In this document: one piece after another, positions 302 to 35,919 of the stretch
Layout of the letters: each line of letters opens with the position of its first letter
Position numbering within the stretch: position 1 is the stretch's first letter
IMG/VR virus record: IMGVR_UViG_3300034110_000089
Span: 1 to 35,919 of that record
Length of the DNA stretch: 35,919 nucleotides
DNA from: a virus
Direction: 5' to 3' (one strand)
Made by a program: the position numbers and the translations under genes
The notes under the pieces: model-generated
Databases searched by the model: none
What the model saw: only the letters and a program-made list of their open reading frames with translations
Told to the model about the DNA's origin: nothing

Positions 302-2245
302 TTAAAACGTGCCGCCCGAGACGCCGGACCAAACAGGAACACTTGAGCCTGCCGATGTGAGCACCTGACCGGCAGCGCCGTTGGCGATGAACCCGGTCGC
401 GCCAGCGCCGGTTTGATACGCGATCTGGGATGCTGCGCCACCAGCCAGGTTCGTCGCCGTTGTCGCCGTTGTCGCTGTTGTCGCCGAGCCCGCCGTGGTT
501 GCCGTCGTGGCCGAGGTTGCGTTGCCGCTCAGCGCCGCCGTGATTGTGCCCGCTGAAAAATTGCCCGACGCATCCCTGGCTACAACCTTGGAGGCGGTGT
601 TGGCCGAGGTGGCGTCAACCGCCGCCGTCACCGCCGCCGAACCGTTGTAGCTCGTTCCGGTCAAATAGGTGCCCAGCGTCAGTGCGTTCACTACAGAACC
701 GGCCTGCGTGGCGTAGCCTGCCGACAGCGTGGACTGAGCACGGTTCTCCCAGCGTTGATCCACTGCGTCGTACACAATGACGTCACCGGCAGACAGGGTG
801 CCAAACTGCACGTTGCCGTCAGTGCCGCCCAGTGCAGAACCGAAAGTGGGCCGCACAAACAGCACGCCGTTGGATGTACCCACATGCACCACAGCCGCCA
901 TCGTGGCGATGGCGTTGGGTGTGCTTGGTTTGGTGGCTGTGAGGCCGCCAGTCACTGCGGGGTCGTAATAGAGAACTTGGCCTTGCGTGAACGCCGATGT
1001 GTTGACGCCTCTGATCTCACCAAACTCGTAGACCGTGATCCAGTCGTTGGTCGATCCACTCTCGCCCGCCAAGCCAAGAAGGTAATTCGACTGCTCGAAC
1101 GTCAACCCGGTGGCTGGCGCTGCCGTCAACCCGCCACTTGCACCCAAGGTGCCGGTGAACATCAGCACCTGGCCCTTGGTGGCCGAGGCGCTCAGCTTGA
1201 CGCGGTAGAACATCTCTTCACCGACGTGCTGCACCACGCTGCCGTTCATTTGGAACTGCAACGTCTGGTACATGTCCGCGTTGTTGTAGTGCAGCTTGCC
1301 TGTGGCGTCAGTCGCACCAGCCGTTGTGTCAAACTGGATGAAGTCAGGCGACGAAATGCCACCCGTCAGCCCCGTCATCGAGGTGATGTTGTCGTTGACC
1401 CCCGCAATCGCCCAGCTTTGGTCGATTTTTTGCCACGCGGTGCCGTTGAAAATGACCCAGTCACCGGCCTTCCAGTCAGTGATGCCGTCCAAGTTGGTCG
1501 AACCCGCGACCGACACCACGTAATAGTAGCCGTTGGTGCCTGTGCTGGAGACCAGTGTGGGTGTGTTCGTGCTGGCGTTCCAAGCACCTTGGTAGTCCAG
1601 GCCACCGGCCACGTCGCCCCACGACAGCACAGAGCCGTTGGTGGTCAGGAACTTGCCCGCGTTGCCTGTCTGGCTGGGGATCAGGTTGTCGATCTGAGTC
1701 TGGAGGCTGGCCAGCGTGTCCAACACAACTTGGCTTGTGCCGCCGCCGTTGGTGATCACCTTGATCTTCTCGGCCAGATCAGGGGCCACCACCTCACCCA
1801 CGTTGATCGTGCGGCCAGACGACAGGCTGATGATCAGGCTGCCGTCAAAGTCGATGTGTGCGTCTGTGACCGACACGCCGTCGGTGCCGTCCCGGCCATC
1901 ATTGCCATTCAGGCCATCCGCGCCGCGTGGGCCTTGGCCGCCGTCACGGCCTGGTCGACCGTCTTTGCCGTCCTTGCCGTTCGAGCCATTCAAGCCGTCT
2001 TTGCCGTCCTTGATGGTGGCCACGCGGGCCTCGATCTTGTTGCCCACCTCGTCGTAGCGCTCGCGGATGCCCGCTTCCAGTTTCTTGAGTGCCTGCACCA
2101 CGACTTGGACGTTCTCACCCACGCGCTGCTTTTGCAGCGTGCGGGCCTGAGTCATCGTGGTTTTGATGGAGTCCAGAATCGCTTTTTGCTGCTCTTCTGT
2201 CATCCCTTTCAGGATGAGTTGTTTGGCTAGGCTTTCAACGTCCAT
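302..2245 (-). CDS. Collagen-like tail fibre protein
   Basis: The protein has 647 residues. Its ATG follows AAGGAGTTGAGCA and overlaps the portal stop by 11 bases. The first 80 residues are predicted helical and coiled-coil (many K, E, Q and hydrophobic heptads). Residues 81-125 are an uninterrupted run of fifteen Gly-X-Y triplets (GKDGLNGSNGKDGKDG and onward), a collagen-like triple-helix segment. A beta-rich body follows with the motif GDWVIFNGTAWQKID near residue 265, often seen in phage appendages. The C-terminus is low complexity (Ala/Thr repeats), then an AGQVLTSAG-type tail. This suggests a trimeric fibre or appendage with a helical anchor, collagen stalk and distal beta region. Function is inferred from architecture and its place between portal and other fibre genes. 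Confidence 0.82.
   Translation of the reverse strand: MDVESLAKQLILKGMTEEQQKAILDSIKTTMTQARTLQKQRVGENVQVVVQALKKLEAGIRERYDEVGNKIEARVATIKDGKDGLNGSNGKDGKDGRPGRDGGQGPRGADGLNGNDGRDGTDGVSVTDAHIDFDGSLIISLSSGRTINVGEVVAPDLAEKIKVITNGGGTSQVVLDTLASLQTQIDNLIPSQTGNAGKFLTTNGSVLSWGDVAGGLDYQGAWNASTNTPTLVSSTGTNGYYYVVSVAGSTNLDGITDWKAGDWVIFNGTAWQKIDQSWAIAGVNDNITSMTGLTGGISSPDFIQFDTTAGATDATGKLHYNNADMYQTLQFQMNGSVVQHVGEEMFYRVKLSASATKGQVLMFTGTLGASGGLTAAPATGLTFEQSNYLLGLAGESGSTNDWITVYEFGEIRGVNTSAFTQGQVLYYDPAVTGGLTATKPSTPNAIATMAAVVHVGTSNGVLFVRPTFGSALGGTDGNVQFGTLSAGDVIVYDAVDQRWENRAQSTLSAGYATQAGSVVNALTLGTYLTGTSYNGSAAVTAAVDATSANTASKVVARDASGNFSAGTITAALSGNATSATTATTAGSATTATTATTATNLAGGAASQIAYQTGAGATGFIANGAAGQVLTSAGSSVPVWSGVSGGTF
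450..485. repeat. 9-bp tandem repeat in fibre gene
   Basis: A 9-base unit, gttgtcgcc, is repeated three times at 459-485 with one base change, preceded by a degenerate fourth copy from 450. It encodes the Ala-Thr-Thr repeats of the fibre C-terminal region. The unit is a multiple of three, so copy-number change would alter fibre length without a frameshift. Confidence 0.8.
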
Positions 2246-4262
2246 TGCTCAACTCCTTGGTCAACTGATCCAAGAAGTCTTCTTCCATGCCCGAGACCTT
2301 GTTTTGCTTCTCGGCCATCTGAAGCTCGACCATCTTGCTCTTGTTCTTCATGTCCGCTTCTTTGAGCATCAGCTCGGCGATCTTGACACGCTTGTCGAAC
2401 TCGTTGCTTTCGTTGCCAGCAGGCAGGTTTTTGGTGGTCGATGCGATCACCTTGGCCTGCACTTCTTGCGGCATAAGCTGCGCCTCGGTCATCAGCTTGT
2501 TGGCTTCTGCCCGGTTCTGCTCGGCTTGCGTCGTGTTGACCGCGATCTGAGCCTGCGCCGCTTGCAGTGCCAACTGCTGCTGGATTTCCTGCATCTGCTT
2601 GGCCTGGGGATCGGGCTGGCTCATCTGCTCCAGCGCGCCCATCAGCTCGTAGCGGTTGGATAGGCTGGAGTTGTTCAGAATGCCCTTCAAGATCAGCGGC
2701 AGCACCGGGGTGTTTGGGCCCAGTGTCTGGAGCAAACCAATGAATTGCTGCTGCTCGTACTCGCGGGCGATGATGCCCAGAGTGGCCGTCGGGATGAACT
2801 TCATGTCCACGCTTGGGTAGCGCTCGGGGTCGAACTGCATGTAGCGGAACGCCGCTTTTTGCACGAACGGGATCAGGAAGTCTTCTTGGAAGTTGACCAG
2901 CGTGCGCTTGTACTTCTTGATGATCGTGGCCACGGCCATGCTCATGCCCGCGCCGTCGCGGTTGCCTTGGCTGACCATGCCCTGGCTGTCCAGCGTGCCA
3001 GTGGCTTGCAGCAGCATGCGCTCGAACTCTTTGGCCGTGTTCAGGTTGTTGAGACTGGTCTCGCCGAACTTGAACGGGTACAGAATCTCGGCTGGGTTGC
3101 CGTTGACCATGAACGCTTTGCCGGGCTTGACCTCGAACCGTGCGCCGCGTGGCAGTCGGGTCGCGTCCATGCCCATCATGGGGCTGGTTGTCAGCGCCAG
3201 CGAGTCCAGATGCGAGCGCACCTGAGCGTCAATCGCCTTTTGCATGTTGTAAGACTTCTCCACCGTACCGCGACCGAGCAGGCGGTTCGGCACCGTGTCG
3301 TCTTGGTAGCTCAAGATCGGGCGGTCCTTCATCATGTAAGGGTTCGCCTCGGCCTTGAGCAGCATGCCCTCGTTGGCGATCACGACAATCGCTTCCACCA
3401 TGTCTGAATAGTCGTCGGCTGCGCTGTCCTCGGGGAACAAATCCTCGACCTCAGAGTCCAACTGCTCCAGATACTCGCGTGGCACCAGGCCGTAATACGT
3501 CAACAGACGCACTTTTTCGTCGCGGTACTGACTCAGCTCCTGAGTCGGCTCCAGATCGGTGTCCTCGGCGGCGGGCTGGATGTTCACCTTGCGGTAGATA
3601 CCCTTTTCGATGCCCTCGACGATCTTGTGGATGCCCACATACTTCTCAACCGCCACACCCATGCAGTCGTCGATGCTGGTGCCGTTGGGGTCAAACAAGA
3701 AATTCTTGGGGTTGACCGGCATGATCTTGACCGCGATGCGGTTTTTCTCCACCACACCGATGGCCGCTTGGCCAGTTTGGCCAGGAATCGCTTGCGTTGC
3801 CGGTTCGAAGATCTTTTCCGTCTTGACGATGATCTCGCCGATGCCTGTGCCGTAGATTTCGGCCATCAGCTCGATCTGATCAATCGCTTTGCGGATTTTG
3901 TCCTGCTTGAAGTCCTCCATGAGCTGATTTTTCAGCATCTCGACGTCCAACGGGTTGCCGTTGACGTCTTTTATGTCGTCTTCAATGTCGAAAAACTCAC
4001 CCTGGCCGAAGATCGCTTCCATGATCTCCGCGTGCCGGGTCTCCACCGCCTGCTGGGTGGCCGGGGTCACGATGCGTGAGCGCTCAGATTCTCTCGTTTT
4101 GTCCTCAGAGGCCCATTCACCACGGAAAATGCGCTCGTATTCGAGGTAGTCGTCGAGGTAGTTGGTGTCGCGCCAGTCTCTCCAGCGCTCGCAATGGTCA
4201 ACGACGAAAGCCGTCAGCTCCTTGTCGGATTGTGTCGGCTCGTCAAACTCGTTTTGATCCAT
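2235..4262 (-). CDS. Portal protein
   Basis: This 675-residue protein has the size and character of podovirus portals. The N-terminus is acidic (DEPTQSDKELTAFVVDHCE), followed by a DYLEYERIFRGEW segment and a RIVTPATQQAVETRHAEI region typical of portal N-domains. The C-terminal 130 residues are strongly Gln/Ala/Lys/Glu rich and predicted helical, matching the barrel-like crown seen in P22-type portals. The portal forms the dodecameric DNA gate at the capsid vertex and binds the terminase during packaging. The ATG at 4262 lies 1 base after the terminase stop and is preceded by AGGGG. The order TerS-TerL-portal is standard. The identification rests on size, composition and context more than on a single motif. 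Confidence 0.88.
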   Translation of the reverse strand: MDQNEFDEPTQSDKELTAFVVDHCERWRDWRDTNYLDDYLEYERIFRGEWASEDKTRESERSRIVTPATQQAVETRHAEIMEAIFGQGEFFDIEDDIKDVNGNPLDVEMLKNQLMEDFKQDKIRKAIDQIELMAEIYGTGIGEIIVKTEKIFEPATQAIPGQTGQAAIGVVEKNRIAVKIMPVNPKNFLFDPNGTSIDDCMGVAVEKYVGIHKIVEGIEKGIYRKVNIQPAAEDTDLEPTQELSQYRDEKVRLLTYYGLVPREYLEQLDSEVEDLFPEDSAADDYSDMVEAIVVIANEGMLLKAEANPYMMKDRPILSYQDDTVPNRLLGRGTVEKSYNMQKAIDAQVRSHLDSLALTTSPMMGMDATRLPRGARFEVKPGKAFMVNGNPAEILYPFKFGETSLNNLNTAKEFERMLLQATGTLDSQGMVSQGNRDGAGMSMAVATIIKKYKRTLVNFQEDFLIPFVQKAAFRYMQFDPERYPSVDMKFIPTATLGIIAREYEQQQFIGLLQTLGPNTPVLPLILKGILNNSSLSNRYELMGALEQMSQPDPQAKQMQEIQQQLALQAAQAQIAVNTTQAEQNRAEANKLMTEAQLMPQEVQAKVIASTTKNLPAGNESNEFDKRVKIAELMLKEADMKNKSKMVELQMAEKQNKVSGMEEDFLDQLTKELSNGR

Positions 4263-4263
4263 A

Positions 4264-5523
4264 TTAGACCCCTGAAATTACATCCATCGGCTGCCAGTCC
4301 TCGTCATCAGCATCTTCAAAGTAGCTGGTGACAGCCAACTGGTCAATATACGACAGCGCGTCCGGCAGGTCGTCATGGACGCCCTGCGATGGGAACATAA
4401 GCAGTTGGTCCACGAACGTGTCCCAATCTTCCTCGCTGTTTAGGACGATTCTCCCATGCTCGAAGCGCCCTTGCAACGACCAAATGATTCTATCCGTTTT
4501 CTTCCGGTTGCCATGCGTCAGGTCCACGATGTGCGAGTAGACGTTATTTTTTCTCATCAAATCTGACAAATACGGTAAAACCGCGTTTTTCAGCGCTCCT
4601 CTTTCGATTCCGATGCTCAACGGCCTGTAATCCCGCATTTTCATCAGTATTTTTGAGGCCGTTTCTCTTATATCCCACCGACCGTGGTCGATTTCCTTGA
4701 CGAACCACTTGCCGTCGTCGGTCACTTTCACCACCGCGATGGCCGACTCGTCGAGCCGCTTCTTGCTGTTGGCCGCCTGCTTGGCCACTTCTTCAAACCC
4801 GGCCAAGTCCACCGCGACGAAGTAACTGCCGTAGTCCGGCTCGGTGCCGTACTTGATCCAGTCCTCTTTGAAGACGTCCGCGCCCGCGTTGCTGAAGCTG
4901 GCCAGGTATTCCTGTTTGAACGCAAAGCTCGACAAGGTCTTCTTCGCTGACTCGATCTCGGTTGGGTCGATCAGCGGGTTGTCCTCGGTCGTGAAGTGCC
5001 AGCTCTTCCAGTCCTTGTCTTGGTCGTCCTGCCCCAGCTTCCACAGGTCGTGAAACCAGTTGCGCCCTTTTGGCGTGCCGATGAACATGCCGCGCCCCTT
5101 GCGGTCCGACAAGGACGCCCGGATGACCTGCTCCCACGCCTCGGGCTTGATGTCGGCCACCTCGTCCAGAACTGCGTAGGTTAAGGAGACGCCGCGCAGC
5201 GTGTCCGGGCGGTCTGCGCCTCTGACGTAGATACGCGCGCCGTTGACCATCGTGATGTCCAAGTTGTTCACGTGGCTGCTTTGGATCACCTCGCGGCCCA
5301 GGTCGAGCAGCAAGTCCCAGATGATCTGCCGCGACTGACCCATCGTCGGGCTGACGTACAGCACCGCCGAACCCGGTGGGCACTTGAGCGCTTCGATGAT
5401 CAGCGTCGTCGCTGCCAGTCTCGACTTCCCACAGCGCCGCCCGGCGGCGATCACTTTGAATCGATGGTCGTCGGCGTAGACCTGCTGCTGCCAAGGCAGG
5501 AGAGAGAAGTTGAGATCAGACAT
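4264..5523 (-). CDS. terL: Terminase large subunit
   Basis: This is the packaging ATPase-nuclease, 419 residues from the chosen start. The N-terminal ATPase has the terminase-type Walker A loop IAAGRRCGKS (about residues 24-33) and Walker B YAVLDEVAD, with the catalytic acid after the DE pair. The C-terminal RNase H-like nuclease shows an acidic strand YFVAVDLAG, a second one IGIERG, and a final DDLPDALSY, which together supply the metal-binding acids. An upstream in-frame start exists at 5568, but the ATG at 5523 has GGAG nine bases upstream and overlaps the TerS stop by 8 bases (ATGTCTGA), so I prefer it. The protein translocates DNA into the prohead through the portal encoded immediately downstream. 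Confidence 0.95.
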   Translation of the reverse strand: MSDLNFSLLPWQQQVYADDHRFKVIAAGRRCGKSRLAATTLIIEALKCPPGSAVLYVSPTMGQSRQIIWDLLLDLGREVIQSSHVNNLDITMVNGARIYVRGADRPDTLRGVSLTYAVLDEVADIKPEAWEQVIRASLSDRKGRGMFIGTPKGRNWFHDLWKLGQDDQDKDWKSWHFTTEDNPLIDPTEIESAKKTLSSFAFKQEYLASFSNAGADVFKEDWIKYGTEPDYGSYFVAVDLAGFEEVAKQAANSKKRLDESAIAVVKVTDDGKWFVKEIDHGRWDIRETASKILMKMRDYRPLSIGIERGALKNAVLPYLSDLMRKNNVYSHIVDLTHGNRKKTDRIIWSLQGRFEHGRIVLNSEEDWDTFVDQLLMFPSQGVHDDLPDALSYIDQLAVTSYFEDADDEDWQPMDVISGV

Positions 5524-5860
5524 CTGTAACGTCTCCTGCTGCGTCGATGATCTGTGGCTCTTGGCCAAGGCCCGTGATGTTGATCGTGATGGCGCTGCGC
5601 TGACTCTTGTCCTTCTCGAACATGCCGATCGGCAGCGTCCTGTCCATGCACATCTTCAGCGCCGCCATCTGACCTGGGTGGTCATCGTTGAGCGCGATCT
5701 GGATCACTTTCTCTGCGACGTCCTTGCCGCCAGAGCGGATCATCAGCTCTTTGAGTTCCTTGATGCGTTGGTGATCCGTCTTCGGCAAGATCGCAGGCGG
5801 ATTCTCTGCGTACCTCTGGATCGTCATCTTGAGCGGTCGCCCTCTTTTTTTCGGTTCCAC
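5516..5860 (-). CDS. terS: Terminase small subunit (putative)
   Basis: The product has 114 residues from a GTG start at 5860 with AAAGGGCAAA upstream. It begins with the basic patch KKRGRPLK, then a helical middle (HQRIKELKELMIRSGGKDVAEKVIQIALND), which would suit the DNA-recognition and oligomerisation roles of small terminases. The C-terminal third (SAITINITGLGQ) is a beta-type segment. It lies directly upstream of terL and overlaps it by 8 bases, so translation is probably coupled. Small terminases diverge strongly in sequence, so the call depends mostly on position, size and the basic N-terminus. The non-coding stretch upstream (5861-6173) would be a natural place for its recognition site. 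Confidence 0.75.
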   Translation of the reverse strand: MEPKKRGRPLKMTIQRYAENPPAILPKTDHQRIKELKELMIRSGGKDVAEKVIQIALNDDHPGQMAALKMCMDRTLPIGMFEKDKSQRSAITINITGLGQEPQIIDAAGDVTDV

Positions 5861-6173
5861 TTTGCCCTTTCGGAGTTTGGTCTAGGCATTGTAGGTCAGA
5901 TTGTCATTTTTTTTCTACCGCTGGGCTTCGGGCCTGAAGTCCCAAATTCACTTTTTCGGAGGGTTGGGGGCACCTGTAAATTTTTGTCTACAGCCAGTAC
6001 CCCTCCCCCCCATGATTCCGGCCACGCTGGTGAGTGCTCACTGACTTGGCCTGGCTAGTGAGTGCCAACTAACAAACAGCAAACGGCAGGGGGCACTTAA
6101 CATAATGCAGGAAGGGAGAGAGGCGGATGGCCCTTTATCCGCATACCTGACCGATACCTGACCGACTCAGACG
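5861..6173. other. Non-coding region upstream of terS, repeats and palindrome
   Basis: These 313 bases show no convincing gene. They contain a near-palindrome GTGAGTGCTCAC (about 6030), a second GTGAGTGCC shortly after it (about 6058), a C-run (about 6004-6010), a stem GCGGAT/ATCCGC (6123-6128 with 6137-6142, loop of 8) and an 11-bp tandem repeat at 6143-6164. Its place between a small leftward gene and the terminase genes makes it a candidate packaging (pac or cos) or processing region. That is inference; no cleavage site is visible. Confidence 0.5.
6143..6164. repeat. 11-bp perfect tandem repeat
   Basis: The unit ATACCTGACCG occurs twice head to tail (6143-6153 and 6154-6164), just downstream of the 72-codon ORF's stop and 280 bases upstream of terS. 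It could be a protein-binding direct repeat. Confidence 0.85.
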
Positions 6174-6389
6174 TTATGCATTTTCGGCATAACTGTTATC
6201 AGAAAACAGCATGGCATCCAAGTCATCGCCGGGGCGAAAACCTGCATTGTGCAGCGCTGTATAAATTGACAGCAATTCCTTGAAGCCGCGCGTCAGGTCA
6301 CCTTGACCGGCTGTCAACAAAATGGCGCGGTCTTGATCTGACAGTTTGCGCTGAAATTCGACAGTGTCCAACTTGCACGGCCTAGCCAT
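6174..6389 (-). CDS. Hypothetical protein, possible small DNA-binding protein
   Basis: The product has 71 residues from the ATG at 6389; a TTG one codon earlier is an alternative. AAGG lies about ten bases upstream. The N-terminus MARPCKLDTVEFQRKLSDQD is followed by a segment ILLTAGQGDLTRGFKELL that loosely resembles the GGNLSxGIRxAV helix of ribbon-helix-helix proteins, and an acidic C-terminus. It is the first gene of the long leftward late unit and sits beside the repeat-bearing control region, so a regulatory role is possible. I do not recognise the family with confidence. Function remains unknown. Confidence 0.7.
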   Translation of the reverse strand: MARPCKLDTVEFQRKLSDQDRAILLTAGQGDLTRGFKELLSIYTALHNAGFRPGDDLDAMLFSDNSYAENA

Positions 6390-6398
6390 CAAATGCCT

Positions 6399-6644
6399 TT
6401 CTGGGTCAAATAGGTCAAATTGTCACCCTGATTTTATCGCTGAAACCTACGCGGCGTGTTCATGGCGTCCGTCCAATTCTGGCGCTAGCCTATATATATA
6501 TATTTATTCTCTAACATCTAAAGAATACATGACAATTTGACCCAGAACGTCTGCAACCCGCATGGTTACTGGCCTCGCTCTGGGTCACGCCGTCCGAAAA
6601 CATGACCCAGAACATGGCAAGACAACCCAGAACATGACCCAGAA
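6399..6644. repeat. TGACCCAGAA motif cluster (six copies)
   Basis: Forward exact copies lie at 6538-6547, 6603-6612 and 6635-6644. A degenerate forward copy, CAACCCAGAA, is at 6623-6632. An exact inverted copy is at 6399-6408 and an inverted copy with one change at 6578-6587. Three copies share the extension CCCAGAAC, and two share CCCAGAACATG at exactly 20-base spacing (6606 and 6626). The 6399 copy is within 10 bases of the start codon of the leftward gene, and a related TAGGTCAAATTGTC follows it. Confidence 0.85.
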
Positions 6645-6698: not shown

Positions 6699-6726
6699 TT
6701 GATGGTGCAAAAGAATCTGTTACAGT
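6699..6726 (+). promoter_or_regulatory. Candidate early promoter, rightward
   Basis: TTGATG (6699-6704) and TACAGT (6721-6726) are separated by 16 bases, each matching four of six consensus sigma-70 positions. They lie 27 bases before the first rightward start codon at 6753. An inverted repeat TTGCAC/GTGCAA spans the -35 element and could be an operator. Confidence 0.4.
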
Positions 6727-6752: not shown

Positions 6753-6917
6753 ATGACAGACGCAATCCGCACTTATCAATACATCCGCGCACAACAGCAG
6801 ACGCGCCCTATAGACGCCTGCACAGACGCCGCGCAGTACCACGGCGTGGCAGTCGCTGCACTCGCTGCCGCGCTTATCGCCGCCGACATTGACGCCGCCC
6901 GCCTTTCCCTCATCTAA
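6753..6917 (+). CDS. Hypothetical early protein, 54 aa
   Basis: This is the first gene of the rightward early unit. The ATG is preceded by CGGAGCACATC, a good ribosome-binding site. The product begins MTDAIRTYQYIRAQQQTR and ends in an Ala-rich helical segment (VAVAALAAALIAADIDAA). That segment is too interrupted by Asp to be a clear membrane helix. First genes of early units in phages often act on the host, but nothing in this sequence indicates a function. The next start codon follows 11 bases after its stop with a nearly identical initiation region. Confidence 0.65.
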   Translation: MTDAIRTYQYIRAQQQTRPIDACTDAAQYHGVAVAALAAALIAADIDAARLSLI

Positions 6918-6927
6918 GGAGCACATC

Positions 6928-7023
6928 ATGCACGAAACCACCAAAGACATTCTGGCCGCCTTGGCCATCGCCGCCGCGCTGACCATCGGCGCGCTCGCTT
7001 ACTTCGACGTCCTCACAAAATGA
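6928..7023 (+). CDS. Membrane microprotein, 31 aa
   Basis: The ATG has AAGGAGCACATC upstream. Eight polar residues (MHETTKDI) are followed by one hydrophobic helix, LAALAIAAALTIGALAYF, and a short tail DVLTK. The layout is a single-pass membrane peptide. The stop overlaps the next start as ATGA (7020-7023), so translation is coupled. Small membrane peptides in early phage units can inhibit host membrane functions or modulate lysis, but no specific role can be assigned. Confidence 0.6.
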   Translation: MHETTKDILAALAIAAALTIGALAYFDVLTK

Positions 7024-7268
7024 ACTACTCCACACCCATCACCAGTGCCGCAGACGCCGAGGGCTTCTTGTTCCAGCTTGTCCAACACGGGCGCGAGTTC
7101 CACCCAGAGGACAACGCCCACGACATCATAAACGGCGCAACGGGTCAACCCTTGTTCACTGCCGCTGACGCTGACTTTATAAACGAGCGCATGGAGGAGG
7201 TGCACACCTTCATGGCCGACCCTTGCGCCTATTTGCTCGACCTCACCACATCAACCGACCGTAACTGA
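7020..7268 (+). CDS. Hypothetical early protein, 82 aa
   Basis: This gene is coupled to the preceding microprotein by an ATGA overlap. The product is acidic, with DAEGFLFQLVQHG, an Asp/Ala segment and a TAADADFINERMEEVHTFM helix. No transmembrane helix or metal-binding cluster is visible. I do not recognise a family. It is one of several small genes transcribed together in the early rightward unit. Confidence 0.65.
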   Translation: MNYSTPITSAADAEGFLFQLVQHGREFHPEDNAHDIINGATGQPLFTAADADFINERMEEVHTFMADPCAYLLDLTTSTDRN

Positions 7269-7281
7269 AAGAAACTAAACC

Positions 7282-7569
7282 ATGAATCGCATCACTGAAA
7301 AACAACTGCAAGCCGTTGTCGACCGTTTGAACCGCATCACGGGTTCACCCCTTGAGCCGTATGCCAAGATTGGCGACAAGCACGCCGCCCAGATTGGTTG
7401 CTACCACTTGAGCCACGCATATGGCGGCGTATGCCTTCACCGCATGTACAACGAGGGCGGCGGCGTGACTTCGCCGCTGTCAACGGGTCACATTTCCAAG
7501 CGTGAGCTATTGGGTTTGCTTCACGCCTACATCAACGGCATCGAATCGCAGCAAGAGGTGGCAGCGTGA
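7282..7569 (+). CDS. Hypothetical early protein, 95 aa
   Basis: The ATG at 7282 follows a weak AAAGAAAC site. The protein begins MNRITEKQLQAVVDRLNRIT, has a central region rich in His, Gly, Tyr and Cys (HAAQIGCYHLSHAYGG) and ends in a helix (KRELLGLLHAYINGIESQ). Similar short proteins occur in other phages without assigned function. Its stop overlaps the following GTG start by four bases. Confidence 0.7.
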   Translation: MNRITEKQLQAVVDRLNRITGSPLEPYAKIGDKHAAQIGCYHLSHAYGGVCLHRMYNEGGGVTSPLSTGHISKRELLGLLHAYINGIESQQEVAA

Positions 7570-7748
7570 CCGACGCCCTCGAACGTTTGCGCCTTGAGTT
7601 GGCGCAAGCCATCGCCCAGTGCGAACGACTAAGCCGCCCAGCCCATGCCGTTCGTAACTGTCCCAGTGACCTACAGGCTGAGGACGCCGCATGGCGTCAC
7701 CGACAAAACCTTGAATTTCAGATAAACCAACTGGAGAAAACACCATGA
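7566..7748 (+). CDS. Small coiled-coil protein, 60 aa
   Basis: The GTG start overlaps the upstream stop (GTGA), and the stop overlaps the next ATG (ATGA), so the gene is locked between its neighbours. The N-terminal helix (ALERLRLELAQAIAQCERL) and the C-terminal helix (WRHRQNLEFQINQLEKTP) have heptad spacing, suggesting a helical hairpin. No function is evident. Confidence 0.6.
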   Translation: MTDALERLRLELAQAIAQCERLSRPAHAVRNCPSDLQAEDAAWRHRQNLEFQINQLEKTP

Positions 7749-8179
7749 TCGAATTCACCCACGCCACTACACGCTACACAGTCAAGCCTGAAAACGCTCA
7801 GGAATACCGCCGACTCGCCGCAAAGCCGCCCACAATCAAGCGCAAAGTTGACAGAAACCACGATGCAACGCGCCGCGATTACCCCGTATTTGAACCCGGT
7901 ATGACGACTGACGACTATGTGAGCCAGTTCAATGGGCTTAATTCGCGTTTGCTGCTCACGCCTTGGAACTATGACAACATTTCAGGCGTCGCGCCTATGC
8001 TGGACCCGTCAATCCCCGAAGTGCTGGAGGAACTCGACCCGGATTATGAATACACGCCCACAAAGGCCAAAAAGCAAACAGTCGCAAGCCTAAAAGCCGC
8101 CATTGTGCAAGCCCTCGAATCAATCAAGCATGGCGACACAGACACGGCACAGTGCATCTTGAGCGAGGCGCTGCGATGA
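7745..8179 (+). CDS. Hypothetical early protein, 144 aa
   Basis: The ATG at 7745 follows GGAGAAAACACC and overlaps the upstream stop. The product is hydrophilic. It has an N-terminal beta-type segment (IEFTHATTRYTVK), a basic stretch (KRKVDRNHDATRRD), an acidic middle (EVLEELDPDYEY) and a C-terminal helix (ASLKAAIVQALESIKHGD). It is the largest and last substantial gene of the early unit, before the terminator at 8230. I do not recognise a family. Confidence 0.7.
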   Translation: MIEFTHATTRYTVKPENAQEYRRLAAKPPTIKRKVDRNHDATRRDYPVFEPGMTTDDYVSQFNGLNSRLLLTPWNYDNISGVAPMLDPSIPEVLEELDPDYEYTPTKAKKQTVASLKAAIVQALESIKHGDTDTAQCILSEALR

Positions 8180-8229: not shown

Positions 8230-8251
8230 GGGGCCTCACGGCCCCTTTTTT
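8230..8251 (+). terminator. Intrinsic terminator of early unit
   Basis: GGGGCC (8230-8235) pairs with GGCCCC (8240-8245) across a TCAC loop, and six T residues follow. It ends the rightward early unit. It overlaps the stop codon of the convergent primase-helicase gene and may act in both directions, although the T run favours the plus strand. Confidence 0.9.
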
Positions 8252-10505
8252 ATGTGTTCTCCACCGCTCGCCTGAGTTCTGATTTGCTCAGGTCAACGTC
8301 AGGCGCACAGAATATGTGCTTCTTGCTGGGGTAATCCTGCGCGGCGATGCGGCCACAGTCAACCCAGCCCGCCTCTTTGATCGCGTGCAGCAGCGCGCCC
8401 TGGACAATCTTGGTCCCTTGGGGCGCCAGACCCTGCAAACGATCGCAAAGCGCGTGAAAGGGCGAACCAATGACGCCGCGGGCAAACTCACCAGCCTTGC
8501 GGCGCAGCATGTCAACCAAAAACGCTTCGGCGGTGCTCATGCCATGCTCGACCATGATTTGCTTGGCCTCAGTTAGCGGAGGGGGCGCGCTTGGGTTCCA
8601 CGCTGACACGTCACGCGTGTGCAGGTAGTGAGCCACTGCTTGGAACCCGTTTTGGTTCTTGTACCAATTCCACAGGGACAGCGCCTCGCGCTCAGTTAGG
8701 CGGGGGGCCTCAGACCAGAGCACAAACCAGCGGCGGTCCTCGGACGGCAGCGAAATCGCCACACGCTCGTTAGAAAACGCCACCACGAAGACCCGGTTCA
8801 GGGCGTAGTAGGGGTGCAGGCCCTTGCGGTTGATCGTCAGTAGCTCAGGGGGCGCAGCGATGATGGGCTTGAGGGTGTTCTCCAGCGCGCGGCGGTCCTT
8901 GGCGTCAGCCTGGCGCAGCTCGGCGATCTCCATGACTTCGCACTCGAGGGCGTAGCCCCACTGCGACGTCAGGTCCTCGTTTTTGACCAGCGAACAATTG
9001 CGCTTGGCCTCGCCACCGATGGCCCAAAAGAACGGCGCGAACATCGTGTCCTTGCCCGAGCCGTGCGTGCCGCCCATCAGGATGGCGTGATTGATCTTAT
9101 GGCCGGGGAATTGGACCTTATGCGCCAGCGCGTTCAGCAGGTGCTCGCGCTCGAACTTCTCGGGGATCAGCCGCTCGACATGGCGCAGCCACGGGGTGAC
9201 GTCGCCGGCCACCGGTTGCGGGCGGCTGTTCACCCAGCGGTTGCCGTAGGTTAAGCCGTCACGGTTGACGATCGTGCCCGCGCCAGCCGAATAGGTTACG
9301 CTGACCAGCGACTGCGCGCCCTTGTCCTGGCGCTGCTCGTCAAACGAGTAACTGGCCTCGACCTTGCGGCCATTGTGGACGGACTTGCAGCCGATGTGGC
9401 GGAACATGGCATTGAAAGTGCTGCGTGATATCTCGCGGCGGTCTTGCAGGTCAAAGTAGGCGTCGTCGTCTTGCAGGTACGCGAAGCGGTCCCACCAGTC
9501 GGCCTTCTCGACCCGCGCCATTTCCTTGCGCTGAGTTTCGGCCACCACCGCGGCGGCCACGTTGGGAAAGTCAGGTGTCGGCGTCAGTTTGGACAGCGCC
9601 GACTCCATTGTGCTGACCAGCAGCTCGTCGCGCAGGCCGGGGGTGTGGACCGGGCCGCCACTGTCGGCCACCCACTTGAGGAACGTCGAAGAGTCCAGCT
9701 CCAGGCAGTGGCTGTGCAGGCAGCAGTACGCCCGGTTCGCGGGCATGTAGCGGCCCTCGGGGTTACCGTCGGTGTGCTCGGCAGAGTTGGGGCAAGCCAC
9801 GCCAGCCCAGCCCTCTTGGTTCGGGTTAGAGAGCACCAGCCCGTTCTCTGACAGCCAGGCCATCACGTCGTCGCCGCCATCGTCGGCCACACGGACCGGG
9901 GCGTAGACCGACTCGACCGGGCCGGGCGTGACGTTCATGGCCGCGCACAGCTCCTCGAGGGTGTATTCGCGTTCAGGGTTGAACTCGACCAGCACCGCGG
10001 CGAAGTTGTCGCGGCCAGGTTTGAGGTTGATCGAGCCGGGCAGACGGAAATTGCGCACGGCGTTGATCGCGCCCTTGTCGGTGTAGCCCGCCTCGGCGAT
10101 CGCCTTGATCGCGGCAGCGAAGTCACCCTTGCGCGGCTGCTCGCTGAAGGCGTAGCCCCATTGAAACGAGCCGGGCGAGGTCTCCATGATCCAAGTCGGG
10201 GGCAGCGGGCAGGTGTTGGGCACCTTGTCTGTGCCCACGTCGTCCAGCACCATGACCAGCACGAACTCGCAGTTGGCAGCCGAGGCGCTCGGGTGGCCAT
10301 CCTTGAAACGGTCAACGATGAACGACGCAGTGTTGCCGTACCAAGCGCCGGTTTTCATCTTGTGGCTGGGCAGGAACGCGGGCCAGGTGGCCTTGATCGC
10401 GCCATCGGCGTGCAGTTGAATCTCACGCCCGACGGGTTTTTGCAACACGACCAAAGCGGTCTCGCCCTCGGCGGGCAGTGAGCAGATATAATCCAAGAAC
10501 TTCAT
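8250..10505 (-). CDS. Primase-helicase (primase-like N-terminus, DUF5906/SF3-type ATPase)
   Basis: The protein has 751 residues from the ATG at 10505, chosen for AAAGGAGAAAAC upstream; the frame extends further but lacks such a site. The N-terminal region has an acidic pair VLDDVGTD (about 87-94), then FQWGYAF and VRNFRLPGSIN (about 150-160). These resemble motifs of archaeo-eukaryotic-type primases of the RepB/VirE group. A Cys/His cluster (VACPNSAEH, then CCLHSHC) near 280-325 is a likely zinc site. The C-terminal ATPase has Walker A GGTHGSGKDT (about 478-487), Walker B-like EVMEIAEL, a sensor FSNE and an Arg pair EDRRWF, as in phage DUF5906/SF3-type helicases. It probably primes and unwinds at the fork for the polymerase encoded upstream. 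Confidence 0.88.
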   Translation of the reverse strand: MKFLDYICSLPAEGETALVVLQKPVGREIQLHADGAIKATWPAFLPSHKMKTGAWYGNTASFIVDRFKDGHPSASAANCEFVLVMVLDDVGTDKVPNTCPLPPTWIMETSPGSFQWGYAFSEQPRKGDFAAAIKAIAEAGYTDKGAINAVRNFRLPGSINLKPGRDNFAAVLVEFNPEREYTLEELCAAMNVTPGPVESVYAPVRVADDGGDDVMAWLSENGLVLSNPNQEGWAGVACPNSAEHTDGNPEGRYMPANRAYCCLHSHCLELDSSTFLKWVADSGGPVHTPGLRDELLVSTMESALSKLTPTPDFPNVAAAVVAETQRKEMARVEKADWWDRFAYLQDDDAYFDLQDRREISRSTFNAMFRHIGCKSVHNGRKVEASYSFDEQRQDKGAQSLVSVTYSAGAGTIVNRDGLTYGNRWVNSRPQPVAGDVTPWLRHVERLIPEKFEREHLLNALAHKVQFPGHKINHAILMGGTHGSGKDTMFAPFFWAIGGEAKRNCSLVKNEDLTSQWGYALECEVMEIAELRQADAKDRRALENTLKPIIAAPPELLTINRKGLHPYYALNRVFVVAFSNERVAISLPSEDRRWFVLWSEAPRLTEREALSLWNWYKNQNGFQAVAHYLHTRDVSAWNPSAPPPLTEAKQIMVEHGMSTAEAFLVDMLRRKAGEFARGVIGSPFHALCDRLQGLAPQGTKIVQGALLHAIKEAGWVDCGRIAAQDYPSKKHIFCAPDVDLSKSELRRAVENT

Positions 10506-10520: not shown

Positions 10521-10551
10521 CGCCCGGCTCCCACCGGGCGTTTTCTTTTTT
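10521..10551 (+). terminator. Intrinsic terminator on the plus strand, antisense to replication genes
   Basis: CGCCCGG (10521-10527) pairs with CCGGGCG (10534-10540) around CTCCCA, followed on the plus strand by TTTTCTTTTTT (10541-10551). Genes on both sides are on the minus strand, where no T run follows the hairpin. The structure should therefore stop antisense transcription. In the leftward mRNA it forms a hairpin between the polymerase stop and the primase-helicase ribosome-binding site. Confidence 0.75.
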
Positions 10552-12484
10552 ACGAATAGCGGGTGGTGGTGACGCCCTCGGCAGCCAAGGGCAGGCCCTC
10601 GGCCCAAGCGGGCGGTGTGCACATGATCTGGTGCATGTGCGCGGCGACTGCCTCGGCCTCGTGGGCCGGGCACTCGACAACGATCTCGTCGTGAACGTGT
10701 AGGACAACGCCGTCAAGCTGGCGCAGTGAGTGGCGCAGAATGTCGTGAGCAGCGGCTTGGGTGACGTTTTCGCAGGCCAGACCGCGCCACAGACGGGCGC
10801 GCGGCCACTCCTTGGCGTCAGCAGCGGGTTTCCAAGCGGCTTTGGTATAAGTCACGTTGCCTTCGGCGTCGAATTTGGCGTTGGGATAGCACAGAACCCG
10901 GCCAGAGGGCAGACTGTACCAGAGCGTCTGACCGTCAAACAAGTACACAACACGCCCTGCGGCGAATTCAAAACCTTTGTTTCGCATCGCCCGCAGATAG
11001 GCGGCTTCGAGCTGCTGGCCGTGGGCCTGCGCCCAAGGATTGGCCCTGCGCCAGCCCTCCACGGCCTTGTTGACTTCGGAGGTGGACAACCGGATGCCGT
11101 AGGCCCTGCCGAACACCTCGAACGCGCCTGCGCCACCCAAGAAGCCGAGGGCCAGCTCTTGCACTTTGCCGACCTGGCGCTGGTCGCCGGTCACATCCGC
11201 ATAGGCCACGCCGAAGGTGGCGGCTGCGTTGACTTTGTACGGGTCAAGACCCGAGCGGAACACATCGAGCTTGCCCTCACCTGCGTGGCAGTTGGACAGC
11301 CAGGGGTGCACACGGCCCTCGATGGCCGACCAGTCGTAAGCGATCAGGACGTTGCCGGGCTTGGCGATCAGCGCGGGCCGGAGCATCCCCTTGAGCACAT
11401 CTGTAATGCGGCGACCAAATCTTGGTGTGATTGCGTGGCCGCGCACCATAGCGTGGCGTACTTCATCAGGCTCTTTGGCGCACTTGCGGGTAAAGTTGTG
11501 AACCTGCGCGCCATAGCTCGACGCTCGTCCGGTGGCAGCCCCTCCAGCAAAAACGAAAGCGCCTCGGACTCGGTGATCTTCTTCATCGGCGAGGTTGGAG
11601 AGGCGCGCAAACTTCGCAACCGAAGACGCCCAGAGGTCGTCTGCGCATTGGATAACGTCTGCAACATCGGGCGGAATCTCATCGGGGTCCTCCATTGCGA
11701 GCAGGTTGGCCCGCACGGTCTTGTCAATCGAATACTTCTCGCCCGTCCACATCAGCTTCTTGGCCTCTGGGCCGACGCGCTCGAGCACCCACTCACGCAT
11801 CTTGGGCGAGCGCACGCTGGTGATGGCACCCTCGGTCACCTCGGCCACGATCTGCTGAATCTCGACGGTCTCATCGGCGGCGTATTTGATCGCGGCGTGG
11901 CACAGCGGCACGTCCACCAACACGCCGCGGTCGTTGATGCGCTCGTTCGTGTGATAGTCCAACAGCTCGTCGTCCGACAGTGGGCGCAGCGCCTTGCTGA
12001 CCAGGCGCATCACACGGACGTCTTGTTCGCAGTAGCGCACCATCTCTTCCATGAGCGCAGCGTCCTCGCGGAACTTGCCGTTGGGCTGCGGGATGGACAG
12101 CAAGCGGATCAGTTGCGAGCCACGGTGGTCCTTGCGCATGTCAGCGCCAGCGAAACGGCCCACATCCTCCAGCGAGCCAGGCGCGCAGTTGGCGCGGGCT
12201 TGTGCTGCGGTGCAGTAGAACTGCTCTAGTTTGAAGTTGATCTGGAGGACATACCAAAAGATCAGCCGCTCAAACGCGGCGTTGTGGGCGTAGATCAGGC
12301 CGGTGTGGTTACGCACGTTCTCGGGAAACGGCTGGCCCGGCAGCCAAGTGACGACCTCACCATCGTCGAAGGCGTAGGACATACACAGCACGTCGGTGCT
12401 CGCGTCCTGCGCGTAGTTGTAGACGCCCTTGGCCTTCAGGTCACAGCGGCTACGGGTCTCGAAATCAATCCAAAGCACTGTCAT
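10550..12484 (-). CDS. DNA polymerase, family A, with 3'-5' exonuclease
   Basis: The protein has 644 residues from the ATG at 12484. That start overlaps the stop of the small membrane protein by ATGA, which decides the start over the longer frame. Exonuclease motifs are all present: WIDFET (Exo I, residues 5-10), HNAAFERL (Exo II) and YCEQDVRVM (Exo III). Polymerase motif A reads IAYDWSAIEGRVHPW, matching DxSxIExR. Motif B is QVGKVQELALGFLGG, and motif C is LHVHDEIVVE with the catalytic HDE. There is no 5'-3' exonuclease domain. This is the replicative polymerase, acting with the primase-helicase downstream. The gene is part of the leftward replication unit starting at 14547. Confidence 0.96.
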   Translation of the reverse strand: MTVLWIDFETRSRCDLKAKGVYNYAQDASTDVLCMSYAFDDGEVVTWLPGQPFPENVRNHTGLIYAHNAAFERLIFWYVLQINFKLEQFYCTAAQARANCAPGSLEDVGRFAGADMRKDHRGSQLIRLLSIPQPNGKFREDAALMEEMVRYCEQDVRVMRLVSKALRPLSDDELLDYHTNERINDRGVLVDVPLCHAAIKYAADETVEIQQIVAEVTEGAITSVRSPKMREWVLERVGPEAKKLMWTGEKYSIDKTVRANLLAMEDPDEIPPDVADVIQCADDLWASSVAKFARLSNLADEEDHRVRGAFVFAGGAATGRASSYGAQVHNFTRKCAKEPDEVRHAMVRGHAITPRFGRRITDVLKGMLRPALIAKPGNVLIAYDWSAIEGRVHPWLSNCHAGEGKLDVFRSGLDPYKVNAAATFGVAYADVTGDQRQVGKVQELALGFLGGAGAFEVFGRAYGIRLSTSEVNKAVEGWRRANPWAQAHGQQLEAAYLRAMRNKGFEFAAGRVVYLFDGQTLWYSLPSGRVLCYPNAKFDAEGNVTYTKAAWKPAADAKEWPRARLWRGLACENVTQAAAHDILRHSLRQLDGVVLHVHDEIVVECPAHEAEAVAAHMHQIMCTPPAWAEGLPLAAEGVTTTRYS

Positions 12485-12606
12485 TGCGCGCTCATCTTCC
12501 AGTACATGTACGCCATCCAGACAAACAGCACATTGATGATGGGCGGCGCAAATATAGCCAAGACAGCGCAAGCAACCGCGCAAGCGAGAAAAATTGGGTT
12601 TGTCAT
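12481..12606 (-). CDS. Membrane microprotein, 41 aa, coupled to DNA polymerase
   Basis: The ATG at 12606 has AAAGGAAACGACT upstream. The product is almost entirely hydrophobic: MTNPIFLACAVACAVLAIF, then PPIINVLFVWMAYMYW and a short polar end KMSAQ. It may form one long or two short membrane helices around the Pro pair. Its stop overlaps the polymerase start (ATGA), so it could serve mainly as a leader whose translation feeds ribosomes to the polymerase gene, or be a functional membrane peptide. Composition and spacing argue that it is translated. Confidence 0.6.
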   Translation of the reverse strand: MTNPIFLACAVACAVLAIFAPPIINVLFVWMAYMYWKMSAQ

Positions 12607-12623
12607 AGTCGTTTCCTTTTCCA

Positions 12624-12644
12624 ATGCCCTCTGTCACAGGGCAT
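12624..12644. other. Hairpin between ssDNA-binding candidate and membrane microprotein
   Basis: ATGCCCT (12624-12630) pairs perfectly with AGGGCAT (12638-12644) around a 7-base loop. No T run follows on either strand, so it is not a standard terminator. It lies in the 47-base gap before the microprotein and may affect mRNA processing or stability in the replication unit. Confidence 0.5.
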
Positions 12645-17442: not shown

Positions 17443-17783
17443 GAAGCGCAATTGAAATGGCGAAAGAAGCTGGCTTCATGCTGAGAGCCGAATCTGTAAA
17501 AGGACAAAGCGATTGGTGGGAATGTTTTGACGAAGCAATTGAAAAACTTGTTGCCCTTGCCCGTGCTGATGAGCGTGAGGCCGCGCAAGCAGAACATGAA
17601 GCCGACAAGGTCATCATTGAGTACCACGAAGCAGCGATCAGGCGGCTGGAGGCCGGGATACTGGCAGAGCGTGAGGCGTGTGCAAAGATTTGTGATGAGC
17701 TTGCAAATGACGAGAACACAGATGAATATATTAATGCCGCAAACTGGTGCTCAGTGCGAATCCGAGCAAGGGGAAAAACATGA
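17439..17783 (+). CDS. Hypothetical helical protein, 114 aa
   Basis: The ATG at 17439 has GGAGGAGACT upstream and overlaps the previous stop; an earlier in-frame ATG at 17418 lies inside the preceding gene. The product is acidic and mostly helical: RSAIEMAKEAGFMLRAESV, WWECFDEAIEKLVALARAD, and an AEREACAKICDELAND segment seen in many uncharacterised phage proteins. No enzymatic motif is visible. Confidence 0.65.
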   Translation: MRSAIEMAKEAGFMLRAESVKGQSDWWECFDEAIEKLVALARADEREAAQAEHEADKVIIEYHEAAIRRLEAGILAEREACAKICDELANDENTDEYINAANWCSVRIRARGKT

Positions 17784-17872
17784 CCGAGTGCAAACACCGC
17801 TGGGAAGAAGTTCCAGACAAGCCGCTCTACAAGTGCGTCAAGTGCGGCGCGTTTATGCGGGTCATCAAATGA
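17780..17872 (+). CDS. Zinc-finger-like microprotein, 30 aa
   Basis: The frame is MTECKHRWEEVPDKPLYKCV followed by KCGAFMRVIK. CxH and CxxC pairs separated by 12 residues make a plausible single zinc site. AAGGGGAAAAAC precedes the ATG, and both ends overlap neighbours by four bases. The conserved-looking Cys spacing argues for a real gene despite its size. Confidence 0.55.
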   Translation: MTECKHRWEEVPDKPLYKCVKCGAFMRVIK

Positions 17873-18174
17873 CACCTAGCCGCCAAAAGAAGATCAGGGC
17901 GCTGCTGCGCACACGCCCGCAGGGCATGACGCCGATAGAGCTTTCAGAGCTGCTGGACATCCACGTATCCAACGTCAGGGTGTCGCTCAAGGCCATGCCG
18001 GACGTCTATGTGGACCGCTGGCGCGCGGCCAAGCGCGGCCAGTTCGAGAAGGTCTGGGTCGCCGTGCCCGTGCCGGAGGACTGTCCTCACCCACGCGACA
18101 GATTGAAGTGGGGCACCAACACCAAGAAACCGCGAACCAGTTGGGTAGGAGGCGTGTATGCGCAAGCGCAGTAA
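17869..18174 (+). CDS. Winged-helix DNA-binding protein
   Basis: The product has 101 residues from the ATG at 17869 (ATGA overlap). The pattern KKIRALLRTRPQGMTPIELS, then ELLDIHVSNVRVSLKAMPDVYV with a wing region (DRWRAAKRGQFEKVWVAV), is a typical winged helix-turn-helix: recognition helix in SNVRVSLKAM and wing ending in VWVAV. The C-terminal third is Pro and Thr rich. It could be a transcriptional regulator of the phage or a host-gene regulator. It is the only clear HTH protein in this window. Confidence 0.75.
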   Translation: MTPSRQKKIRALLRTRPQGMTPIELSELLDIHVSNVRVSLKAMPDVYVDRWRAAKRGQFEKVWVAVPVPEDCPHPRDRLKWGTNTKKPRTSWVGGVYAQAQ

Positions 18175-29368: not shown

Positions 29369-30343
29369 TTAGGCTGGTACAGCCAAAGCGTAAGCGCCGG
29401 ATGCGTTAGCAGCCGACGAAGACGCGGCGGTACGCAGAGCCTTCACGCCGTACAGAGTGTCAGCAGTGAACAGGGTACCGAGGTATTCCTGCTTGTACTG
29501 AGTCTGCGAACGGATGCCCATCTGCTCAACCAGAACCATCGAATCGCGGTGGCCCATCAAGCAGATACGGTCAGCGCCAGCGTTACCAGCGCCAGTGTCG
29601 GCGTTGGAAGAAGCGAACACAGCCATACCGTACAACTGACCGATCTCACCGTTGCGGATAGCGTCGCCGTTGCCGATGAACGCCTGCTCGGTGTAACGGG
29701 CCAGACCCATCAGGGTGTTGCGGCTCGAAGGAGGGATCAGGAAGAAACGACCGTCCATAGGAACGTCGTTGTCGTCCAGGCGCTGGATGGTGCGGCGGAT
29801 AGCAGCATCAGTCAGAGCAGCAGCGTTGGAAGTCGAGCTGTTGTAGGCAGTTGTACCGTCGGAACCAATGTAAGCCTTTGTGGAGCTGGCGCTGGTTGCG
29901 TAGTCATCTGTACCCACGGTCGCGCCGTTGAAGGCACGGCCCAACTGGACCAGGCTGGTGTCGATGCGGCGGGCCAAGGCATAACCGGCGTCTTCTGTGT
30001 AGAAGGAACGCAGGGATGTCAGGGCTTGCACTTCGACGATGTCCTCGATCAAGCGGCTGTATTCGTAGTGTTGGTTGATCAACACTTGAATGTTGGTGTC
30101 GCTCTCTGCGATCAGAGTCACGGCATCAGTTGCGGCTTTGGCCGAGGCGCTGCCACGGGCTGGGCTAGGGATGTTGACGGTGTCACCCTTCTTGCCTTTG
30201 AAAGACATCTTCTTGACCAGGTTGGCCAAAACAAGGTTCTTCTTATAGGCGGCAACAATTTCATCAGACCAGATTTCTGGAATGAAGTTAGCTGCCGAAG
30301 TGGTGGTTACTGCATTGGTTGGGGAAAAAGCGGTGTTTGCCAT
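29369..30343 (-). CDS. Major capsid protein
   Basis: This 324-residue protein has TTTGGAGCTTTTAAC before the ATG. The N-terminal part, ANFIPEIWSDEIVAAYKKNL then VLANLVKKMSFKGKKGDTV, is typical of HK97-fold capsid proteins (N-arm and E-loop strands). The later YGMAVFASSNADTG and GIRSQTQYKQEYLGTLF match P-domain and C-terminal strand regions. It is rich in Ala, Ser and Thr. It follows the scaffold gene and precedes decoration, in the usual order. No cleaved delta domain is evident because scaffold is separate. Confidence 0.92.
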   Translation of the reverse strand: MANTAFSPTNAVTTTSAANFIPEIWSDEIVAAYKKNLVLANLVKKMSFKGKKGDTVNIPSPARGSASAKAATDAVTLIAESDTNIQVLINQHYEYSRLIEDIVEVQALTSLRSFYTEDAGYALARRIDTSLVQLGRAFNGATVGTDDYATSASSTKAYIGSDGTTAYNSSTSNAAALTDAAIRRTIQRLDDNDVPMDGRFFLIPPSSRNTLMGLARYTEQAFIGNGDAIRNGEIGQLYGMAVFASSNADTGAGNAGADRICLMGHRDSMVLVEQMGIRSQTQYKQEYLGTLFTADTLYGVKALRTAASSSAANASGAYALAVPA

Positions 30344-35723: not shown

Positions 35724-35919
35724 TTAAAGCACCACCCACACCGAGCCCGAAGGCACGGTGACGGAGACGCCGCTGTCAATTGTGATTGGGCCAGTGCTCA
35801 TGGCGTTCTTGCCCGCAGTGATAGTGTAATTGGCGGTGACGTTTTGGTCATTCTCGTAGAACACCTGATTGCCCCCGCCGCCCGATGCCCCGCCGCCGAT
35901 GGGCACCACGGTGCCGCCC
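35724..35919 (-). CDS. Small tail-fibre protein, C-terminal part (gene split by window ends)
   Basis: This piece continues the gene that starts at 284. It reads VVPIGGGASGGGGNQVFYEN, then a polar segment with TITAGKNAMSTGPITIDSG, and ends SVWVVL before the stop at 35724. The whole product is 113 residues. NQVFYENDQNVTANYTIT is a motif frequently found in phage fibre accessory proteins. The stop lies 9 bases before the S74 fibre start. The Thr codon in STGP carries the base difference between the two contig ends. Confidence 0.75.
   Translation of the reverse strand, partial: GGTVVPIGGGASGGGGNQVFYENDQNVTANYTITAGKNAMSTGPITIDSGVSVTVPSGSVWVVL
35782..35919. repeat. Contig-end overlap, right copy
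   Basis: This is the second copy of bases 1-138, with the single mismatch at 35793. Joining the contig here gives a circle of about 35,781 bp. The mismatch means the two ends were not collapsed from one identical sequence, so it may reflect a strain variant in the source population or a base error. Confidence 0.93.

Follow-up and report, generated by a model that had tools for sequence, protein, structure and literature searches.

In PMC4234260, which cites Ziegelin and Lanka (1995) and Yeo et al. (2002), the alpha protein of phage P4 is described as joining a primase, a helicase and a winged helix that binds the origin repeats in one polypeptide. PICI origins carry two sets of iterons that always flank an AT-rich region (PMC6092414). 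For SaPI Rep, a self-loading helicase, PMC7581432, citing Ubeda et al. (2007), attributes recognition of the iterons to the C-terminal domain. SCCmec encodes a D5-type helicase, Cch2; its C-terminal domain, taken alone, binds direct repeats located next to the gene (PMC7581432). In PLE, the DNA-binding domain of the initiator RepA and the iterons of the origin co-vary and are swapped as modules, as proven by origin swaps; a nuclease that cuts the origin, Odn of ICP1, can drive these exchanges (PMC8263062).

The locus described here lies in a viral DNA of 35,919 nucleotides (IMG/VR record IMGVR_UViG_3300034110_000089), the whole of which was analysed and is called the window below. Its last 138 bases (35782-35919) repeat the first 138 (1-138) with one mismatch, so the record closes to a circle. 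A terminase (4264-5568), a portal-type protein (2235-4262) and a capsid-type protein (29369-30343) were named from sequence and neighbourhood, and the window also encodes a family-A polymerase (10550-12637), an SSB-sized protein and a PD-(D/E)XK/DUF2800 protein. The closest match to its primase among 50,697 phage records, at 50%, is an uncultured podovirus (Manatee Spring), and no DNA similarity of the array region to cultured phages was found; the phage appears to have no close cultured relative. A primase relative at 60% is located in a betaproteobacterial metagenome bin, which hints at a betaproteobacterial host. Relatives of terL were found on 482 viral-contig stretches and relatives of the primase on 244. 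The small early genes at 6753-7748, between the array and the primase gene, have almost no homologues in 19 related contigs, and this segment appears to be a turnover hot spot. One relative (L099, G009) has an extra open frame resembling a homing-type endonuclease between terS and terL (1862-2416), and in several others terS lies about 500 bases farther from terL.

Exact copies of the 10-base word TGACCCAGAA occur four times in the window, all within 246 bases and at no other place in the 35.9-kb record (0.07 expected under a first-order Markov model). The array and its surroundings comprise the following features, in which iterons and the melting site are putative:

6174..6389, minus strand: gene of a 71-residue neighbour protein, conserved at this place
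6399..6408, minus strand: iteron of the left set, exact TGACCCAGAA, ending 10 bases before the ATG of the 71-residue gene
6413..6425, minus strand: TGACAATTTGACC, left set, perfect inverse of the same sequence at 6530-6542
6491..6540, no strand: AT-rich putative melting site, holding a TA tract at 6491-6502
6530..6547, plus strand: extended iteron TGACAATTTGACCCAGAA, right set, including the exact copy at 6538-6547
6578..6587, minus strand: iteron TGACCCAGAG, one mismatch
6603..6612, plus strand: iteron, exact
6623..6632, plus strand: iteron CAACCCAGAA, two mismatches
6635..6644, plus strand: iteron, exact
6699..6726, plus strand: promoter-like TTGATG-16-TACAGT ahead of the rightward early genes, inferred from sequence

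An earlier note on this DNA had described a six-copy array in both orientations around a TA tract; all six copies and the tract are present as described, and the genome-wide search it proposed confines the exact word to the array region. Clustering of 8-mers reaches 5 in about 240 bases in the window, against a maximum of 4 across 60 simulated genomes. No other 50 bp of the genome are as AT-rich as 6491-6540 (82% AT). The outer copies extend beyond 10 bases: the right one reads TGACAATTTGACCCAGAA and the left one consists of the same elements inverted with a 9-base insertion, which places the TGAC half-sites 8-9 bases apart. In addition, ATTTGACCCAGAA at 6535-6547 has a perfect inverse at 6399-6411. 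No DnaA box was found in the window. The inflection in GC skew that the same note proposed to look for speaks only weakly for an origin, with a minimum at 8553, about 2 kb from the array, and scattered, inconsistent positions in relatives; GC skew was therefore left out as evidence. In L275 a second repeated palindrome, TTAGTGAGTGCTCACTAA, occurs next to copies of GTCCACA, some 2300-2540 bases beyond the primase; the primase frame of this locus could not be recovered, and the locus was therefore not scored. The window also contains GTGAGTGCTCACT, at 6030-6042.

Many relatives keep a non-coding array upstream of terL, although the word varies even where terL is up to 98% identical to that of the window. 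Words found at this place are TGACCCAGAA, TGACCCATA, TGACCCACA, TGACTACA, TGACCCTA, GCCCCTA, TTACACAA and ATCGATGCA, and replacement words in relatives include TGACTACA, TGGCACA, TGTGGAC and TGACAATTA. Conservation, which the earlier note would have taken in its favour, thus holds for the array, the word itself being replaced in many relatives. Two replication modules occur behind the same structural genes. That of the window contains the primase-helicase and polA. In the examined genomes with the other module (words TGACCCTA and GCCCCTA), a protein of 671-682 residues has its end immediately next to the array; its C-terminal half differs strongly between the two words, whereas the small neighbour protein is almost the same. 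DnaA-box sequences (TTATCCACA) flank the array in L005, L007, L016, L018 and L040, all with this module and the word TGACCCTA.

Further primase relatives were searched for arrays without prior words. Nearly all of those with enough downstream DNA have an array of a locally unique word, 1.1-4.0 kb past the 3' end of the primase gene. L178 has enough DNA past the primase and no array was found there, the array of L278 could not be identified, and at some primase loci (e.g. L119, L140, L251 and L273) the contig ends early and the array is not visible. Word calls are local k-mer clusters, and some classes are degenerate. Classes K, O and R were merged after inspection: O and R had been candidates for outlier words, and both turned out to have the K wing, with TGGCACA present among their degenerate copies. 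Tandem runs (GGTCGGGCGGC, GCTGGCT and TGGTGC) lie beyond the TGGCACA arrays in L143, L159 and L174.

The protein that appears to read the word is the primase-helicase, which was absent from the earlier list of candidates:

8250..10505, minus strand: primase-helicase, proposed initiator, 807-codon frame
8253..8480, minus strand: predicted C-terminal winged-helix domain, residues 732-807 of this frame
8325..8351, minus strand: wing turn RIAAQDYPS, residues 775-783, co-varying with the iteron word
8286..8291, minus strand: second co-varying spot, residues 795-796

The open frame reaches 10673 from a GTG, and the ATG at 10503-10505 fits the homologues. The protein matches DUF5906 significantly, RepB_primase weakly at its N-terminus, and a DNA primase PHROG; no match to TOPRIM was found. 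In a structure model the last 75 residues are predicted to form strand-helix-helix-strand-strand, with pLDDT near 90, and the C-terminal domain is accordingly a predicted winged helix. The top-ranked solved folds are mainly winged helices (ArgR, replication terminator protein and the C-terminal region of NrS-1 primase), with modest Z-scores (VIA Z-scores up to 6.8, a range common among unrelated folds). The P4 origin-binding domain is not among the structural matches listed, an absence that excludes nothing. Foldseek with the winged-helix model gave no match below E 0.001 (best E 0.07), and a PDB profile search with the C-terminal domain gave chance matches only.

The main comparison set 10 loci with word A (TGACCCAGAA) against 8 with word C (TGACTACA). 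Seven alignment columns separate the two groups fully, all of them at primase residues 777-796, within the last 31 residues; no separating column was found in the rest of the primase, the polymerase, the SSB-like protein, the exonuclease, terL or terS. In the model, most of the separating residues map to the wing, the turn that joins the last two strands. The fewest A/C label changes required on trees were 1 for the wing, 3 for the neighbour protein, 5 each for the primase body and the polymerase, 6 for terL and 7 for terS; shuffled labels averaged 5.5-6.3 changes for wing, body and neighbour. A packaging site (pac or cos) for the nearby terminase might be proposed, as terS and terL both lie within 2 kb, but with neither gene showing a separating column and both at the high end of the label changes, we give this reading next to no credence.

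The same wing positions recur in two other lineages that changed their word. Between words M (TGTGGAC) and N (TGACCCA) only four columns separate (776, 777, 782 and 794), and between K (TGGCACA) and C2 (TTGACTACA) 12 of the 16 separating columns fall at 771-799. In a fourth case, L188 and L245, which are 89.6% identical, wing and word both differ, L245 having an M-S wing with a TGACTA word. Among 111 non-identical primases, pairs with bodies at least 95% identical share 99% wing identity when the word is the same and 38% when it differs. The sole pair with identical bodies and "different" words, L188 and L200, is one contig scored twice. A later scan yielded 61 previously unseen contigs, counted after removal of contigs already seen; in all 56 of these new loci with a VAS.D or LKSR wing and a scorable array, wing class matched word, these out-of-sample loci belonging mostly to two wing classes already seen. 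In the new loci, all scorable VAS.D wings went with TGACCCA and all LKSR wings with GTCCACA. Because common descent links the loci of a word class, independent switches number about four and not as many as the loci.

A link between word and wing could be only apparent if both were carried in one recombined block, and at 1.1-4 kb apart they are in reach of a single recombination event. The gene between wing and array (7745-8179, 144 residues) argues otherwise: it occurs as two types and is sometimes absent, and all three states are found with both words, which makes simple hitch-hiking unlikely. Moreover, lineages just 60-70% identical share the same pairing of wing type and word, A..D(Y/F) recurring with TGACCCA and M/T-S-R/H with TGACTA. 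We regard the recombined block as a remote prospect. Among the genes tested, only the C-terminal winged-helix domain of the primase-helicase appears to track the word. Because the word and a short loop near the end of this protein change together, the reader can be named from sequence alone.

The earlier note had offered two guesses, an iteron-type origin and a repressor-operator array, with two candidate binders, the 71-residue product and a winged-helix protein at 17.5-18.2 kb. The latter (17527-18174) is missing from relatives with the same word A and was rejected as reader. For the former, an operator through which it or another regulator controls the divergent units would fit an array between those units, a copy so close to the start of its gene, and the presence of this gene beside the array in nearly all relatives. 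Near-identical neighbour proteins nonetheless occur with different words (L013 versus the window; L018 versus L030) and different neighbour proteins with the same word, and its tree requires three label changes against one for the wing, where adjacency alone predicts some tracking. As the 71-residue protein does not track the word, the operator was rejected as the main reading and we consider it improbable; the guess of an iteron-type origin is strongly supported. The 71-residue protein, a candidate ribbon-helix-helix protein, is predicted to form two helices after an extended stretch, gave no structural or Pfam match, and may perhaps act in transcription control here. Its identity across relatives is 32-89%, compared with 87-98% for terL, and its variable residues 11, 13 and 15 surround two invariant ones, F12 and R14, a pattern that would suit a protein whose own target changes too.

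The layout of the array bears on what the primase-helicase would do there. In 91 of 99 relatives the AT-richest 30 bases inside the array rank within the top 1% of their locus, and sites lie on both sides of the AT-richest stretch in 97 of 99, as they do around 6491-6540 in the window. Binding by the primase-helicase might serve to control early transcription or the use of this protein itself instead of initiating replication, as the position between divergent units and upstream of the promoter-like sequence at 6699-6726 could suggest; yet sites on both sides of an AT-rich stretch are what is reported for PICI origins (PMC6092414), and a helicase-primase would be an unusual regulator. We hold such a regulatory role to be very unlikely.

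Four things are observed directly: the array, its AT tract, an architecture kept across relatives, and words that co-vary with the wing. From these we conclude that the array is very probably a replication origin read by the winged helix of the primase-helicase, with the wing turn setting the word. The TGACCCAGAA words would be iterons, with one set to the left and one to the right of an AT-rich site of melting. The C-terminal winged-helix domain would bind them, the wing turn (RIAAQDYPS in this phage) determining the word that it recognises. With the sites on both sides occupied, two opposed helicase rings would be loaded at the AT tract and would open it. The primase-helicase would then prime the opened tract and hand over to the family-A polymerase of the phage for extension, so that replication would start at the array. 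In relatives, wing and iterons change together, and the lineage would thus hold many origin types.

More tentatively, and with the balance somewhat against it, about six residues of the wing turn may form a portable cassette for origin specificity, exchanged together with the iterons to give mutually exclusive replication groups and perhaps to escape origin-targeting parasites or nucleases. Its code would be simple and centred on residue 777, where A would stand for TGACCC, M or T for TGACTA, K for TGGAC, H for TGGCAC and G for TGACAA. No stand-alone copy of the wing domain, as an Odn-like decoy, was found. As PLE swaps can be nuclease-driven (PMC8263062), the word diversity here may point to a similar pressure.

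These results name a probable origin and its reader from sequence for a common, uncultured phage lineage with freshwater relatives. The roughly eleven natural wing/word pairs, several in near-identical bodies, form a data set on change of initiator specificity, and the joint switching of the cis and trans parts of a replicon is a long-standing question.

The array is best read as an iteron origin like those of P4 alpha and PICI Rep, but carried by phages that are not satellites and with specificities shuffled in nature. As in P4 alpha, a single protein is proposed to hold primase, helicase and a repeat-binding winged helix; the P4 primase is of the bacterial TOPRIM type (PMC4234260), whereas the protein here has a weak RepB_primase match at its N-terminus, and P4 is a satellite, whereas the phages here encode terminase, portal, capsid and polymerase. 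The likeness to PICI and SaPI lies in iteron sets flanking an AT-rich region and in a C-terminal domain that, judging by co-variation, sets specificity. Their ori is directly 3' of rep, whereas here it would be 1.1-4.0 kb downstream, between divergent units, an array adjacent to the initiator-side gene being found only in some relatives with the other replication module. PICIs are also helper-dependent satellites for virions, whereas the window encodes its own terminase, portal and capsid-type proteins. SCCmec Cch2 belongs to a different element, and its primase is a separate protein. In PLE, initiator domain and origin iterons co-vary as word and wing do here, but the domain is RepA_N rather than part of a helicase-primase, the types are few and the iterons are about 30 bp. 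Initiator-origin co-variation with domain swaps is thus already known, and proven, in PLE satellites (PMC8263062). As far as the open-licence literature shows, four points appear to be new: such an iteron origin occurs in phages that are not satellites and have a family-A polymerase; the array stands at a distance from the initiator gene; there are about eleven types of word; and specificity can be narrowed to the wing turn and one nearby spot.
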